Source of the DNA: Halomicrobium urmianum
GTDB lineage: Archaea > Halobacteriota > Halobacteria > Halobacteriales > Haloarculaceae
DNA: 64,000 bases
Assembly (NCBI RefSeq): GCF_020217425.1
Contig: NZ_CP084090.1
Coordinates: 3,162,001-3,226,000 of the forward strand
Direction of reading: 5' to 3'
Position 1 is the first letter of the stretch; each line of letters begins with the position of its first letter. Below, in pieces: positions 1 through 17,684 of the stretch. The notes under the pieces are model-generated. The model searched no databases, was not told the DNA's origin, and worked only from the letters and a program-made list of their open reading frames with translations. The position numbers and the translations under genes were made by a program.

Positions 1-512
1 TGGGCGACCTCTTCGAGCGCGACCCGGAGGCGACGGGCGGCCACCGCACCTCCGACCCCTACGAGTTCTACGAGCAGTGCATGGAGATGGCGATGATACG
101 GATCGCCCGCGCCCGGCGCGCGCTGCGCGGTGCCGACCACGAACTCGTGTTCGCCTACACGAGCGGCCTCGACCTGATCGGACACGTCACGTACGACCTC
201 CCGGACCTCCAGATGGAGGCCTACGCCGAGGTCGACGAGTTCGTCGGCGAACTCCGGGACGATCTCCGGGAGGGCGACGAGTTACTGCTCGTCAGCGACC
301 ACGGGCTCCAGAACGGCGTCCACACCCACGAGGCGATGGTGGCCGGGACCGATCCCGCCAGAGTCGCGGAGATCGAGAGCGTTCTGGACGTCCGAGACTC
401 GGTCGAATCGGGACTGGTCGGGCGGGAGCACACCCGCGACAGTCCTCAGTACGAACTCGAAGCCGGCGGGGACGACGTGAAACAGCAACTCGAAGACCTT
501 GGATACATGTGA
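1..512 (+). CDS. Alkaline phosphatase superfamily phosphodiesterase, C-terminal part
   Basis: The open frame enters from the left edge (first full codon at base 3) and stops at 510-512, so only the last 169 residues are present. It contains a GLDLIGH segment, an SDHG motif and an HTH triplet, which are the metal-ligand motifs expected in the type I phosphodiesterase / phosphopyruvate-mutase-like branch of the alkaline phosphatase superfamily. The protein ends in QQLEDLGYM, nearly the same tail as the next protein. The next gene starts two bases after the stop, so they are cotranscribed. The substrate is probably a phospho- or sulfo-ester of a surface glycan, inferred from the neighbours only. 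Confidence 0.7.
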   Translation, partial: GDLFERDPEATGGHRTSDPYEFYEQCMEMAMIRIARARRALRGADHELVFAYTSGLDLIGHVTYDLPDLQMEAYAEVDEFVGELRDDLREGDELLLVSDHGLQNGVHTHEAMVAGTDPARVAEIESVLDVRDSVESGLVGREHTRDSPQYELEAGGDDVKQQLEDLGYM

Positions 513-514
513 CC

Positions 515-1993
515 ATGACTGCACCGAACATTCTCTTTCTCGTACTTGACGCGGTCCGCGTGGATCACGCCTCGACCTACGGGTACGAGCGCGAGACGAC
601 GCCGACGATGTCCGAACTGGCGGACGACGGCGTCCGATACGACCACGCCTTCGCGCCGTCCATCTGGACACCGACCGTTCACGGCGCTGTCTTCACCGGC
701 AGGTACCCGTCCCACACCGGCATCTACGGCAACTCGCTCGGAATCCCGGACGACGACGAGACACTACCGGAGACGCTCCAGCGTCAGGGGTACCGGACCT
801 TCGCGGCGAGCGCAGGTGCGCACATCCGCGCCGGGCGCGGATACGATCGGGGCATCGACGAGTTCGTCGAGACGCGACGGATCTCCCCGGACGTCGACTT
901 CTTTCGCAAAGTCCTCACTGATCGGTCGTTTGCGAGGCAGGTCCTCTTCTCGCTCACGCGTGGCCCGGACGACAAAACCCAGTACAAGTACGACCGCCTC
1001 GAGCGCTTCGTCGATCGATCGATCGACGACGGTGAGCCGTTCTTCGGGTTCATAAACGCCAAGACCGCCCACAACCCGTTCAATCCGCCGCGGCCCTACA
1101 AGGAGATGTTCTGTGACGGGTTCGACCGACCGAGGTGGGAGTTCCTGGAGCGACTCCGGGGACAACTCGGCGGCGAGACCCAGCGCCTCAGGGATCACGA
1201 CACGGAGAAGCTTCGACAGATCAGCAGCAGCGGCGGCGATGGCGTCATGGTCGACGCTGTCGAGATGACTGAGGAGGAGTGGGACGTCATCCGCGCCTGG
1301 TACGACGGCGCCATCAGATACCTCGACGACGTCGTCGGTCGGCTGGTGGCCCACCTCAAGGAGCGGGGCGTCTACGAGGACACGCTGATCGTGATGACGG
1401 CCGATCACGGCGACAACTTCGGCGACCACGGTCTGGCGAGACACGCGTTCTGTCTGTACGACACGTTACTCCACGTACCGCTGGTCATCAAGCCACCGGC
1501 GACCGGTGACGCTGCCTCCGTCGCCGGCCGGACCATCGACGAGCAGGTGTCTCTCGTCGACCTCCACCCGACATTCCTCGACGCGGCGGGTGCATCGATG
1601 CCGGAGTACGACTTCGCGGAGAGCCTCCTGAACTTCGAGCAGCGCCGCTACCACGACTTCACGTTCGCCGAGTACGCCGGATTCGAGGGATCGATCCAGC
1701 GGCTCCAGCGCAAGTATCCCGACTTCGACCCCACGCAGTTCGCTCGGACCATCCAGTCAGTCCGCGACGATAAGCACAAACTAATCGTCGACAACGACGG
1801 GAACAGGGAGCTATACGCGTGGCGAGCGGACCCCGGGGAGACCGAGGACCTCGCCGACCAGCGTCCCGAAGTCGTCGACGCTCTCGAAGCCGAACTGGAG
1901 GGCAGCCTGAACCCGCTCGATTCACCAGGGGATTTCGCCACGCCGGACGACCCGGAGCTCGAAGAGCAATTGCGCGACCTCGGGTACATCTGA
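515..1993 (+). CDS. Sulfatase-like hydrolase (alkaline phosphatase superfamily, Thr nucleophile type)
   Basis: A 492-residue protein. The start at 515 gives MTAPNILFLVLDAVR, the classical N-terminus of sulfatases, with the metal Asp of LDAVR; upstream in-frame codons only overlap the preceding gene. The active-site region reads WTPTVHGAVFTGRYPSHTG. It lacks the C/S-x-P-x-R signature needed for formylglycine, and a Thr sits where the nucleophile aligns, as in the many WT-x-P-x-H arylsulfatase-like proteins. A second metal motif, TADHGDNFGDHG, lies near residue 295, and KHK is near residue 420. The C-terminus is EEQLRDLGYI. The context of a deacetylase and a glycosyltransferase suggests work on a surface polysaccharide. 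The hydrolysed group (sulfate, phosphate or phosphonate) cannot be decided. Confidence 0.8.
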   Translation: MTAPNILFLVLDAVRVDHASTYGYERETTPTMSELADDGVRYDHAFAPSIWTPTVHGAVFTGRYPSHTGIYGNSLGIPDDDETLPETLQRQGYRTFAASAGAHIRAGRGYDRGIDEFVETRRISPDVDFFRKVLTDRSFARQVLFSLTRGPDDKTQYKYDRLERFVDRSIDDGEPFFGFINAKTAHNPFNPPRPYKEMFCDGFDRPRWEFLERLRGQLGGETQRLRDHDTEKLRQISSSGGDGVMVDAVEMTEEEWDVIRAWYDGAIRYLDDVVGRLVAHLKERGVYEDTLIVMTADHGDNFGDHGLARHAFCLYDTLLHVPLVIKPPATGDAASVAGRTIDEQVSLVDLHPTFLDAAGASMPEYDFAESLLNFEQRRYHDFTFAEYAGFEGSIQRLQRKYPDFDPTQFARTIQSVRDDKHKLIVDNDGNRELYAWRADPGETEDLADQRPEVVDALEAELEGSLNPLDSPGDFATPDDPELEEQLRDLGYI

Positions 1994-2009
1994 CGGTGGA
2001 AGACTGACG

Positions 2010-2690
2010 ATGGGTGTCGGAATTACGCGCGCTTCGCTCGTCTGTCTCCGGTTCGACGACTATCACCAGTCTGTCGATCACGATACCTGGGTCGACGTCC
2101 TCTCGCGATACAACGAGCGCGGACTGCGCGGTGTGATCGGTATCGTGCCGAAGTACGAGGGCGAGCGGCTGAATGCCGATGTCGTCGAGTTCCTCCACGA
2201 ACTCGAAGCGGACGGCTGGGAACTCGCACAACACGGCTATACACACGAGGACGTCGGCGAGGGGAGAGGCGGACCACTGTACCTCGAACGGAGCGAGTTC
2301 GCCGGACTTGACCGCGCGGAGCAGGAGCGACGAATCGAAAGTGGACGCGACATCCTGGAGACGCACGGCATCGAACCGGATACGTTCATCCCGCCGTGGC
2401 ACGAGTACGACAGGACGACGCTTCGCGTCCTCTCCGACCACGGTTTCGAGTGCCTGAACGAGGGGCGCTGGCCGGTACCGCGAAACGTCGAGGGCGTGAC
2501 GCTCGTTCCGACCCACATCCCCGCGGTAACGCCGGACATGCTCGCGGTGGGCGTCGTAACGCTCGTGTCACATCCGCATCTCGACGACGCGCCGATGGCG
2601 GATGCGGAACTGGTGTCCGGACGCGAAGACCGATTGCGCACGCCTATCGAGGTGGCCAGGTGGTGGCAAGAACTCGGCCGAGAAAGATAA
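2010..2690 (+). CDS. DUF2334 / polysaccharide deacetylase-like protein
   Basis: 226 residues, starting 16 bases after the sulfatase-like gene. The motifs CLRFDDYHQ near residue 12 and QHGYTHED near residue 75 correspond to the Asp-Asp and His-x-x-x-His metal site of NodB-type deacetylases. FIPPWHEYD near residue 127 is the following conserved aromatic motif of the DUF2334 branch. The fold is a TIM-like barrel. No signal peptide is visible, so it may act in the cytoplasm on a nucleotide-linked or lipid-linked glycan before export. It belongs to a glycan locus with the flanking genes. Confidence 0.75.
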   Translation: MGVGITRASLVCLRFDDYHQSVDHDTWVDVLSRYNERGLRGVIGIVPKYEGERLNADVVEFLHELEADGWELAQHGYTHEDVGEGRGGPLYLERSEFAGLDRAEQERRIESGRDILETHGIEPDTFIPPWHEYDRTTLRVLSDHGFECLNEGRWPVPRNVEGVTLVPTHIPAVTPDMLAVGVVTLVSHPHLDDAPMADAELVSGREDRLRTPIEVARWWQELGRER

Positions 2691-2706
2691 CGGGGCGATA
2701 GGGTGG

Positions 2707-2713
2707 TATTAAA
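2707..2713 (+). promoter_or_regulatory. TATA box for the GT4 gene
   Basis: TATTAAA is centred about 30 bases before the ATG at 2740, the spacing expected for a leaderless haloarchaeal transcript. It argues that the glycosyltransferase starts at 2740 and not at the ATG at 2713, which lies at the edge of the box itself. Confidence 0.5.
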
Positions 2714-2739
2714 TGTTCGTTAGCCACAGTCGAGGACAG

Positions 2740-3897
2740 ATGCGAATTGCGTACGTGACCCCGTACTACAACGGATCCTGCGACGGTCGATACGGCCGTT
2801 TCCTGGACTGGGTCCACACCGCGCGCGACGTTGACAATCCACCGTTCGAGTTCGACGTGTATGCGTTCACCGCCAGTAACCCGGACGGCACGCTCGCGTC
2901 GACGGCGCACGGCTACCTTGGCGACGCGGAGTCGCTCTGGGGGACGAAGAAGAACAAGCCGGAGTTCCTCCTCAACGCGCCCCGGATCGGGCGTGCCCTC
3001 CGTGAGAATGAATACGACCTCGTCCACGTCGTTCCGATGGACACCATCGTTTATCCCACCGTCCTCGCGGCCGCCCCAGACGTCCCCGTCGTCGTTGGCC
3101 CGAACATCGGCGGTTGGTCACCGGTACGGGATGTCCCCCACTGGGATGAAGGGACCGCCGACTACGTCGAGAATCGTCTCCGGTTCGGGCTGAAGAACGC
3201 GCTTGCTCGTCTGGGCGAGTTCGATCACGCCGTTGCGTTTAGTGAGCATCACCGGGACATGCTAGAATCGTTCTCCATCGAACGCCCAGACACGACTGTC
3301 CTCGAAGCGGGCGTCGACCTGCGTTTCACGCCCGGTGAGGACGATACTATCGGCGAGCCACCGGAGCTGCTCTACGTCGGAGACTTCTCCCATCACAAGG
3401 GCTATTACCAGTTTCTCGACGCGATTTCACGACTTGACGTTCCGGTGACGGCGAGGCTCCTTGGCGCCGGGGACCCGGATCGACGGCGTATCTCGGAGCT
3501 AGGACTGGAAGAGACCGTTACGGTAGAGGGGTTCGTCCCGAGGAGTGAGCTCCCGGAGTACTACCGTCGGGGGGACCTCCTCGTCGTTCCGACGATCGAC
3601 GAAACCGCCGGGACGAACGCGCAGATCGAAGCGCTGGCCTGTGGAACGCCGGTCGTCCTGACCGACAAGCCGGGCGTCAACGAATTCGCGCCGGCAGGTG
3701 CGTCAGTCGCGTATTCCCCCCGTGGGGTACCACGACTGGTTGAGGCACTCGAAACGGCGCTGGTCGATCTCGAATCGATGACCGAAATCGCACGCCGAGA
3801 GGCGCCGAACTACCGAGCAACGGGGACCCTCGAACAGCTCTTCGATCTCTATCAGACGTTACTGGCGGAGAGCGACGACGGCCGAGCGCAGCGGTGA
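2740..3897 (+). CDS. Glycosyltransferase family 4
   Basis: 385 residues from the preferred start MRIAYVTPYYNG. An earlier ATG at 2713 would add nine residues of weak character. The N-terminal Rossmann domain is followed by a donor-binding domain with LLYVGDFSHHKGYYQF near residue 210, VEGFVPRSELPEYY near 260 and ETAGTNAQIEALACGTPVV near 285. The last is the E-x7-E pattern that binds nucleotide-sugar in retaining GT4 enzymes. It probably transfers a sugar to a surface polysaccharide or lipid-linked oligosaccharide; donor and acceptor are unknown. It has its own promoter, so it can be expressed apart from the three genes upstream. Confidence 0.8.
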   Translation: MRIAYVTPYYNGSCDGRYGRFLDWVHTARDVDNPPFEFDVYAFTASNPDGTLASTAHGYLGDAESLWGTKKNKPEFLLNAPRIGRALRENEYDLVHVVPMDTIVYPTVLAAAPDVPVVVGPNIGGWSPVRDVPHWDEGTADYVENRLRFGLKNALARLGEFDHAVAFSEHHRDMLESFSIERPDTTVLEAGVDLRFTPGEDDTIGEPPELLYVGDFSHHKGYYQFLDAISRLDVPVTARLLGAGDPDRRRISELGLEETVTVEGFVPRSELPEYYRRGDLLVVPTIDETAGTNAQIEALACGTPVVLTDKPGVNEFAPAGASVAYSPRGVPRLVEALETALVDLESMTEIARREAPNYRATGTLEQLFDLYQTLLAESDDGRAQR

Positions 3898-3966: not shown

Positions 3967-4821
3967 CTACTCGCCGTCATGTCTCTGAGGCTGACTCTCG
4001 TACTCCCACACCAGCTCGAAGTACCGCTTGAGCCCGGCCACGAAAGACGCGTTCTCCGTGATAGCGGCCTGGCGCATGTGATTGGGAACGTCGTCCTCCT
4101 GGACGAGCAAAATAGCCCGGCCGCTGTCGTAGTCCATACTGGGATCCGCAATCGTCCCGCGCCAGGGTAGCCGCTCCGTACTGTATCGAACCTCGACGTC
4201 GGGGAACGTCTCGGTGATCTCGTCGACGATCTCGCGCTGGGTCGCCCTGTTCTCGGGGGAGAGGTGGTCGGGGTGGAGTAGCAGGATCGAGACGTCGACG
4301 CCACGGTCGCGCGCCGTCTCGAACGCCGGCCGCACGGCGCCGAAGTACTCGAAGCTCTTGGAGATGACGACCACCTCCTCGTCGGCGCGCTCGTAGACGC
4401 GGCGGGTCTCTCGCTCGCTGGGTTCGCCGACGTCGACGACGTGGAACAGCTCGGCGGTGGGCGAGATGTCCTCGCTGGCGCGGCGGTACTGGGGCTCGTA
4501 CTCGTCGAGGAACGGCTCGCGGAGCTCCTCGATCCGGGTCTCGAACTGCTCGTACTCCTGGCGGCGGTTCTCGACGGCGCGGTCCAGCAGCTCCTCGGGC
4601 GGCTTGGGCTGGTACTGCTTCGGACGACCTGGGATGACCTTCACGAAGCCCCGGTCGGACAGCGCGTCGAGCACGCCGTAGATGCGGGCCTTGGGGACGC
4701 CCGTGGCCTCGGCGAGGTTCGGGGCCGTCGTCCGACCGAGCCGCAGCAGTTCCGTCAGCGCCGTCTCTTCGTACTCTGTCAGCCCGAGGAGGTCGAACAC
4801 GTCGTCGGCGCCGTCGGCCAT
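3967..4821 (-). CDS. TrmB-family transcriptional regulator
   Basis: 284 residues. The first about 90 residues form a TrmB winged helix (FDLLGLTEYEETALTELL, then VPKARIYGVLDALSDRGFV), followed by a coiled-coil linker (about 85-115) and a C-terminal effector domain. It is shorter than the sugar-sensing global TrmB of Halobacterium, so it is a paralogue and not clearly that protein. The start at 4821 fits a leaderless promoter (CTTTAGTA on the minus strand, 27 bases upstream). Across the divergent region is a perfect palindrome (4881-4905) that fits the published TrmB site pattern TACT-N8-GAGTA. This suggests that it regulates itself and the small gene at 4905. Confidence 0.85.
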   Translation of the reverse strand: MADGADDVFDLLGLTEYEETALTELLRLGRTTAPNLAEATGVPKARIYGVLDALSDRGFVKVIPGRPKQYQPKPPEELLDRAVENRRQEYEQFETRIEELREPFLDEYEPQYRRASEDISPTAELFHVVDVGEPSERETRRVYERADEEVVVISKSFEYFGAVRPAFETARDRGVDVSILLLHPDHLSPENRATQREIVDEITETFPDVEVRYSTERLPWRGTIADPSMDYDSGRAILLVQEDDVPNHMRQAAITENASFVAGLKRYFELVWEYESQPQRHDGE

Positions 4822-4844
4822 GTCCGTCCCAACGGGTCGGCGCC

Positions 4845-4852
4845 TACTAAAG
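4845..4852 (-). promoter_or_regulatory. TATA box of the TrmB-family gene
   Basis: CTTTAGTA on the minus strand is centred 27 bases from the ATG at 4821, which predicts a leaderless transcript. Confidence 0.5.
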
Positions 4853-4880
4853 CGGGCCGGAACCTATTTGTCGCTGGCAT

Positions 4881-4905
4881 TAGTTACTCACATACTGAGT
4901 AACTA
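4881..4905. promoter_or_regulatory. Perfect 10-bp inverted repeat, candidate TrmB-family operator
   Basis: The arms are TAGTTACTCA (4881-4890) and TGAGTAACTA (4896-4905), separated by CATAC. The right arm ends on the A of the ATG of the small gene at 4905. Inside it is TACT-N8-GAGTA, which matches the site described for Halobacterium TrmB (TACT-N7/8-GAGTA). It lies about 60 bases upstream of the divergent TrmB-family gene and directly over the start of the small gene. Occupancy would be expected to repress the small gene and possibly activate or autoregulate the regulator. Confidence 0.65.
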
Positions 4906-5009
4906 TGCCTGACGACAGCACCGACCGGGCCCACGTGGAGGACGTCGAAGACGGCTGTGGCTGCGCCGAGGTGTGGGAGCACCTGAGCGAGGAGCGAAGC
5001 GACGACTGA
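4905..5009 (+). CDS. 34-residue cysteine-containing haloarchaeal peptide
   Basis: ATG at 4905 and TGA at 5007-5009. The peptide is acidic and has a CGCAEVWEHLSEERSDD C-terminus, with two Cys in a C-x-C pair. I recognise the general type: short conserved haloarchaeal proteins with a GCGCAEVWEHLSE-like end. I know no function. A single CxC pair suggests metal or thiol binding, perhaps as a dimer. The palindrome that ends on its start codon indicates tight control by the divergent TrmB-family regulator. Confidence 0.6.
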   Translation: MPDDSTDRAHVEDVEDGCGCAEVWEHLSEERSDD

Positions 5010-5190: not shown

Positions 5191-6255
5191 ATGGCCGACC
5201 GCGACGACGTCTGCGTGCTCGTGCCGACCTATCAGGAGGCCGAGACCATCGGCGAGGTTGTCTCGGGCTTCCGCGAGCGCGGATTCGACAACGTGCTGGT
5301 GATTGACGGCGGATCGACCGACGGGACCCGCCGGGTCGCCGAGGACGCGGGCGCGCGAGTCGTCACGCAATCGGGCTCGGGCAAGGGGCAGGCGGTCCGC
5401 GAGGCGATCGACCGGCACGTACGCCAGCCGTACGTCCTGATGCTCGACGGCGACGCGACCTACCGGCCCGACGACGCCGACCGGATGCTCGAACCGCTGT
5501 TCGAGGGGGAGGCCGAACACGTCATCGGCAACCGCTTCGCGGACATGCGGCCGGGGGCCATGACGCGGCTCAACCAGGTGGGCAACCGGATCATCAACGC
5601 CGCCTTCTCGGTGATCCACGGCCGGGACCTCGTCGACATCCTCTCTGGCTACCGTGCGTTCACGCTGGAGTCGGCCCGCAGGCTCCCCCTGTCGGCCGAC
5701 GGGTTCGGCATCGAGACCGAACTGGCCGTCGAGTGCGTGAAGAACGGCGTCACGACGTCGGTGGTGCCGATCACCTACGAGCCGCGGCCCGACGAGTCGG
5801 AGACGAACCTGCGGCCGTTCCGCGACGGCGCCCGAATCGTCTTCACCATTTACCGGATGGCGAAGACGAACAACCCGCTGTTCTACTTCGGGAGCGTCGG
5901 CATGCTGAGTACGGTCGGCGGCCTCCTCGTAGCGCTGTACGTCGCCTACGATTGGTTCGTCGCGAGCACGTCCCACGAGGTCCTCGCAGTGGTCGCTGCC
6001 TCGGGGATCCTCTTCGGCGTCCAGTTGCTGATGTTCGGCGTCCTCTCCGACATGATCGTGACGGTCAACCGGGAGCAGACCCGCCGGATCGAGCGGATCG
6101 CGCGCCAGCTCGGCGAGGACGACTCGCCGTCGGTCGATCCGGCCGCGCAGCCCGGCGATACCGCAGATCCGGCCGGGGAAGCGGCCGTCGACGGCGGGAG
6201 CGACGGGGCTCCCGAAGCGGCCGGCGACGGCGAGACGTCGGCCGGGGACGACTGA
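5191..6255 (+). CDS. aglJ: AglJ-type dolichyl-phosphate glycosyltransferase (GT2)
   Basis: 354 residues from MADRDDVCVLVPTYQEAETI. A TTTT element at 5161 lies about 28 bases upstream and supports this start over the ATG at 5176. The GT2 domain has LVIDGGSTDGT and LMLDGDATYRPDD (the DxD region), then DILSGYRAFT and GFGIETELAVE. Two transmembrane helices follow (about residues 230-250 and 260-280), then an acidic, disordered tail of about 60 residues that is longer than usual. AglJ adds the first hexose to dolichol phosphate for N-glycosylation of the S-layer glycoprotein at the cytoplasmic membrane face. The motif set matches AglJ closely as I recall it; a DPG-synthase-like paralogue is the alternative. 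Confidence 0.8.
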   Translation: MADRDDVCVLVPTYQEAETIGEVVSGFRERGFDNVLVIDGGSTDGTRRVAEDAGARVVTQSGSGKGQAVREAIDRHVRQPYVLMLDGDATYRPDDADRMLEPLFEGEAEHVIGNRFADMRPGAMTRLNQVGNRIINAAFSVIHGRDLVDILSGYRAFTLESARRLPLSADGFGIETELAVECVKNGVTTSVVPITYEPRPDESETNLRPFRDGARIVFTIYRMAKTNNPLFYFGSVGMLSTVGGLLVALYVAYDWFVASTSHEVLAVVAASGILFGVQLLMFGVLSDMIVTVNREQTRRIERIARQLGEDDSPSVDPAAQPGDTADPAGEAAVDGGSDGAPEAAGDGETSAGDD

Positions 6256-17657: not shown

Positions 17658-17684
17658 GTTCGAGAGAGATTCGCTCTCTCGAAC
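17658..17684 (+). terminator. Perfect 11-bp stem-loop after the ylbF-like gene
   Basis: GTTCGAGAGAG (17658-17668) and CTCTCTCGAAC (17674-17684) flank a five-base loop ATTCG. A second palindrome (GCCGGCC-TGC-GGCCGGC) follows near 17721-17737. The intergenic stretch 17607-17865 otherwise holds only the TATA element (ATTTAG, 17836-17841) of the next gene. The stem could end the ylbF transcript or act as a processing signal. Confidence 0.4.

Follow-up and report, generated by a model that had tools for sequence, protein, structure and literature searches.

TrmB of Halobacterium salinarum (VNG1451C) and Haloarcula hispanica (HAH_1548) carries a TrmB-type helix-turn-helix (HTH) domain and uses a palindromic operator with TACTC and GAGTA half-sites. 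The published TrmB motif, TACT-N7-8-GAGTA, covers spacers of both 6 and 7 bases between these half-sites (PMC4158304), and gapII is a known TrmB target (PMC10817205). In Pyrococcus furiosus, the TrmB-family member TrmBL2 is an abundant chromatin protein. TrmBL1 of P. furiosus and Tgr of Thermococcus kodakarensis recognize a TATCAC-N5-GTGATA site in a global glycolysis regulon, and the place of the palindrome relative to the TATA box determines repression or activation. For TrmB-family members, a site located downstream of the TATA box leads to repression (PMC4706686; PMC4158304), whereas a site upstream of it can allow activation (PMC4706686). CsmR of Haloferax has another motif, TATCA-N4-TGATA (PMC13286277).

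We analyzed a 64,000-nucleotide stretch of haloarchaeal DNA (hereafter, the window) that contains a TrmB-family gene and, next to it, a perfect palindrome. On the basis of the sequence comparisons described below, we consider it probable (roughly 0.8) that this palindrome serves as operator for the TrmB-family paralogue encoded divergently, which would control a regulon of two promoters, those of a microprotein gene and an SQD1-like gene, through repression that is relieved by a ligand.

The proposed repressor (3967-4821, minus strand) is a 284-aa protein with a winged HTH, a long helix and part of a TrmBL2-like effector region. It matched the TrmB HTH family PF01978 with 68.4 bits (gathering score 25.6). 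The sugar-binding sensor domain PF11495, which marks the TrmB/TrmBL1 branch and is absent from TrmBL2-type members, was not reached (19.2 bits versus 22.2, over residues 142-192 only). The haloarchaeal TrmB model NF047392 (cut-off 500) gave the regulator only about 40 bits; the true TrmB ortholog of the genome, encoded at C1:3246891-3247934, scored 612.8 bits. As judged from these profile scores, the regulator is a paralogue within the TrmB family rather than the TrmB ortholog. By sequence profile, the nearest solved structures were TrmBL2 and TrmB chains; TrmBL2 of P. furiosus (E 6e-14) is also similar in size (264 aa) and was ranked first by Foldseek when the predicted fold of the regulator was used as the query. 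The AlphaFold model used for this search was built from 5 sequences and was weak (pLDDT 61.8), with low confidence past residue 216, and the overall fold is all that was taken from it. In contrast to TrmBL2, the regulator would act on few targets through a short, defined palindrome. It contains no cysteines, which makes it improbable that the protein itself senses thiols.

Direct reading of positions 4881-4905 confirmed the perfect 10+5+10 inverted repeat described in the initial annotation, with the left arm TAGTTACTCA (4881-4890), the loop CATAC (4891-4895) and the right arm TGAGTAACTA (4896-4905). The reported TACT-N8-GAGTA pattern was present as well, with 8 bases between TACT (4885-4888) and GAGTA (4897-4901). 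As had also been stated, the palindrome lies between the regulator gene and a divergent gene for a 34-aa peptide, and the ATG of the latter begins at 4905, the last base of the palindrome. Shuffling of the window predicts about 0.2 palindromes with 10-bp arms and a 5-base loop. However, when loops of 3-12 bases were allowed with the same arms, the window contained 10 repeats versus 3.75 expected; the palindrome by itself is therefore weak evidence, and its rarity was dropped as proof. These 10 comparable palindromes would suit a chance or non-regulatory inverted repeat, but we consider such an origin extremely improbable and already contradicted by conservation, since the sequence and spacing are constant over many genera. 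The conserved core, TTACTC-N7-GAGTAA (4884-4902), occurs just twice in the 4.25-Mb genome, while its reversed control gave 0 matches there and 5 in 293 genomes. When up to 2 mismatches were permitted, the 19 matches in the genome did not exceed the 21 of the reversed control, and such sites were disregarded for this reason. The proposed operator, to which no strand is assigned, thus rests on its sequence, on its conservation upstream of orthologues and on its two places in the genome. A further perfect palindrome in the window, GTTCGAGAGAGATTCGCTCTCTCGAAC, occupies positions 17658-17684.

The second genomic site (C1:951723-951741) stops 3 bases short of the ATG start codon of a gene outside the window (C1:951745-952926) that encodes a 394-aa protein with full-length homology to SQD1 (1qrr, 1i24; E=1e-70). 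The 394-aa protein thus resembles the plant enzyme responsible for synthesis of sulfoquinovose, a sugar that contains sulfur. The alignment revealed that the SQD1 catalytic residues Thr145, Tyr182 and Lys186 (numbered along chain 1qrr) are kept, as in SQD1 and Agl3, the UDP-sulfoquinovose synthases. The protein differs from these enzymes in that P replaces R101 and V replaces E148, and it scored 360 bits on the curated UDP-sulfoquinovose synthase equivalog model NF041015, below the cut-off of 575; we call it SQD1-like because of these differences. Directly 3' of the SQD1-like gene is a second NAD-dependent epimerase gene (L189:10937-11905), and a similar epimerase neighbour was observed in L191 (G214) and L192 (G210).

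Comparison of 293 genomes of the order established by computation the conservation and spacing of the site, its specificity for two targets and its co-occurrence with the regulator. At 69 of 103 loci, TTACT-N9-AGTAA lay no more than 400 bp upstream of the regulator orthologue, with identical spacing in all. About one-third of the regulator loci had no nearby palindrome, in part because the peptide gene is not adjacent to the regulator there. The peptide motif was present at 70 of 102 regulator loci, and the palindrome accompanied it at 69 of these 70; its absence from orthologous gene pairs, named in the initial annotation as a refuting outcome, is therefore not what was found. Regulator orthologues were present in 101 genomes, the SQD1-like gene in 122 and the site in 102, and regulator and SQD1-like gene occurred together in 100 of the 101 regulator genomes. 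TTACTC-N7-GAGTAA was detected in 92 of the 101 genomes with the regulator versus 10 of the 192 without it. Fisher p-values for co-occurrence were far below 1e-40 but are inflated, as they overstate independence among related genomes. A better test for this reason was provided by the 22 genomes that have the SQD1-like gene and in which a search for the regulator ortholog found none; the site was missing anywhere in 18 of these and present in 4. The site tracks the regulator gene and not merely the target gene (92/101 versus 4/22).

Three genomes of the same genus (G001, G002 and G004) lacked the regulator, the SQD1-like gene and the site. Family-wide, the core was found in 61 of 77 genomes. Among the 80 exact sites listed, 72 were at an SQD1-like or regulator gene, and 46 of the 49 SQD1-like genes checked had an exact site within 12 bp. 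In several lineages, the SQD1-like gene is located near the regulator. One more of the listed sites (G232 C12:130792) lies 2 bases ahead of a relocated peptide gene. Exact matches explained by neither a regulator nor an SQD1-like start were observed at G206 C9:520223, G208 C37:48664, G047 C1:635595 and G134 C2:5903, the last two about 250 bp past the SQD1-side site. The loci L131 (G045) and L132 (G018) have a degenerate operator upstream of the regulator (TTACTCATTTTCTTAGTCAC), though the regulator and the SQD1-like gene are present, which possibly reflects decay or changed specificity.

The initial annotation had suggested that the paralogue kept the TrmB site while controlling a new target. 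The comparisons support a link of the site to the TrmB-family paralogue and a new target; the second proposed target, the SQD1-like gene, lies outside the window and was beyond the view of that annotation. The retained site was correct with respect to the TACTC and GAGTA half-sites but not the spacing, which is 7 bases here versus 6 in the gapII site of the same genome (TTACTC-N6-GAGTAA); the gapII-type operator TACTC-N6-GAGTA was found neither at 4881-4905 nor at the corresponding sites of the relatives, where the spacer is 7. Under strict criteria, the TrmB site at gapII was matched in the genus only, and a relaxed scan with shuffled controls was then used. Among 30 gapII promoters of the family, a spacer of 6 was present in 15 (1.2 in shuffles) and a spacer of 7 in 4 (1.45 in shuffles). 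The palindrome literally matches the published TrmB motif (PMC4158304), and TrmB of Har. hispanica binds the promoter of HAH_0188, which encodes a protein of <50 aa (PMC10817205); the palindrome could thus be read as a site of the true TrmB and a part of its glucose-responsive gluconeogenesis regulon, with the paralogue incidental. We regard this as very unlikely given the enrichment of spacer 6, and hardly of spacer 7, at gapII. Moreover, spacer-7 sites go with the paralogue, whereas the three same-genus genomes without it retain only the spacer-6 gapII site. Among the 15 TrmB ChIP peaks in Har. hispanica, not one carries the annotation of an epimerase or glycosyltransferase gene; the entry for HAH_0188 shows no divergent neighbour, in contrast to the palindrome locus (PMC10817205). 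The preferred reading is that the paralogue would act as a dedicated local regulator of two promoters, compared with the at least 15 targets of TrmB, and that its dimer would contact both TTACTC half-sites, 7 bases apart.

The promoter geometry points to the probable mode of control. In 72 peptide-side promoters, A+T content peaked 17-23 bases before the palindrome; an A+T-rich, TATA-like element was centred about 20 bases before the operator in these promoters and about 13 bases before it in 44 SQD-side promoters. This peak corresponds to the predicted TATA element of the microprotein promoter, CCTATTTG (4863-4870, plus strand). Counted 27 bases on from the TATA-like element, the transcription start is predicted to fall within the operator at both promoters, that of the microprotein near 4894, inside the palindrome. 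The contact between operator and start codon seen once in the window was the rule at both targets, where the operator touches or overlaps the start codon (+1, +2 or -8 relative to the operator end for the peptide; 0 to +5 for SQD1-like genes). Since the operator is downstream of the TATA box and over the predicted start, repression is favoured as the likely mode at both promoters. The site would then set the mode as in TrmBL1 and Tgr, even though the operator sequence and the regulon of these proteins differ. With its operator just past the TATA box and at the start codon, the bound regulator would block RNA polymerase, and a ligand would relieve this repression.

On the regulator side, the palindrome is upstream of the predicted TATA element of the regulator gene, CTTTAGTAG (4844-4852, minus strand), about 27 bases before its ATG; TTTTA-type elements occupy this place in relatives. 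This arrangement, together with the activation from upstream sites known in the family, would fit a paralogue that binds the site yet activates its targets, or mainly activates its own gene. We consider that unlikely, because both conserved targets have the site downstream of the TATA box and over the predicted start, and at loci away from the regulator, too, the palindrome accompanies the peptide and the SQD1-like gene. Repression of the two targets therefore remains the mode that we favour.

The first proposed target (4905-5009, plus strand) encodes the 34-aa microprotein with a GCGC motif, a member of a conserved family for which Pfam and NCBIfam searches gave no match. It had been described as a C-x-C peptide; the second Cys is indeed kept in 20 of 20 aligned peptides, but the first is not invariant and many relatives have DGAGC, so that the motif reads DG(C/A)GC-x-E(I/V/M)WE. 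Residues H10, G17, G19, C20, E22 and R31 are invariant in this alignment. A family member was found in 265 of the 293 genomes, and the genome studied here has three. In several genomes sampled, an additional family member is transcribed divergently from a gene for a nitrite/sulfite reductase of the ferredoxin type, whose product matches PF01077/PF03460 and falls below every curated NCBIfam cut-off. This second microprotein was observed in L217:3008-3193 (same genome as the window, C1:2035007 onward), L221, L222, L225, L226 and L227; a DUF7119 gene is located downstream in L217, and relatives of it are present in L221 and L225. Known SQD1 enzymes, such as Agl3, take sulfite (PMC4245038). As one microprotein member adjoins a nitrite/sulfite reductase gene and the operator-controlled copy would have its regulator in common with an SQD1-like enzyme, we tentatively propose a sulfite link, in which the microprotein might be a dedicated partner that channels or senses sulfite or sulfur under a TrmB relative whose specificity diverged from that of TrmB by one spacer base. 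We keep this link speculative, since nitrite could instead be the substrate of the reductase.

The gene after the microprotein gene is aglJ (5191-6255, plus strand), which encodes an S-layer glycoprotein N-glycosyltransferase (TIGR04182, 464 bits; cut-off 325). It is the neighbour in 42 of the 70 loci with the peptide and has no operator of its own, and its position is consistent with a surface-glycan role. At about 510-3897 in the window, beside the regulator, we observed sulfatase-like and polysaccharide-deacetylase-like genes (both assigned by eye) and a GT4 glycosyltransferase gene (Pfam); together with aglJ, these look like a surface-glycan island. Har. hispanica reportedly has an N-glycan containing sulfoquinovosamine. 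We infer that the two targets may take part in making a sugar of the sulfoquinovose type, which the S-layer N-glycan might receive. The SQD1-like product could just as well enter sulfolipid synthesis; the SqdB operon of Haloquadratum walsbyi was read in this way in the genome paper (PMC1544339).

If the proposed regulon is correct, a regulon of two genes and an exactly defined site could be assigned to an unstudied subgroup of the TrmB family, and the genome would offer a clean case in which two related regulators are told apart by half-site spacing (6 or 7). An unannotated microprotein family, found in most of the haloarchaeal genomes searched, would be tied to an SQD1-like enzyme and a nitrite/sulfite reductase, and its function would therefore become testable. 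Candidate genes for haloarchaeal sulfosugar synthesis and its control follow from the regulon. If the sulfite reading is also true, sulfite would be handled by an archaeal protein of about 35 aa that is widespread but unannotated.
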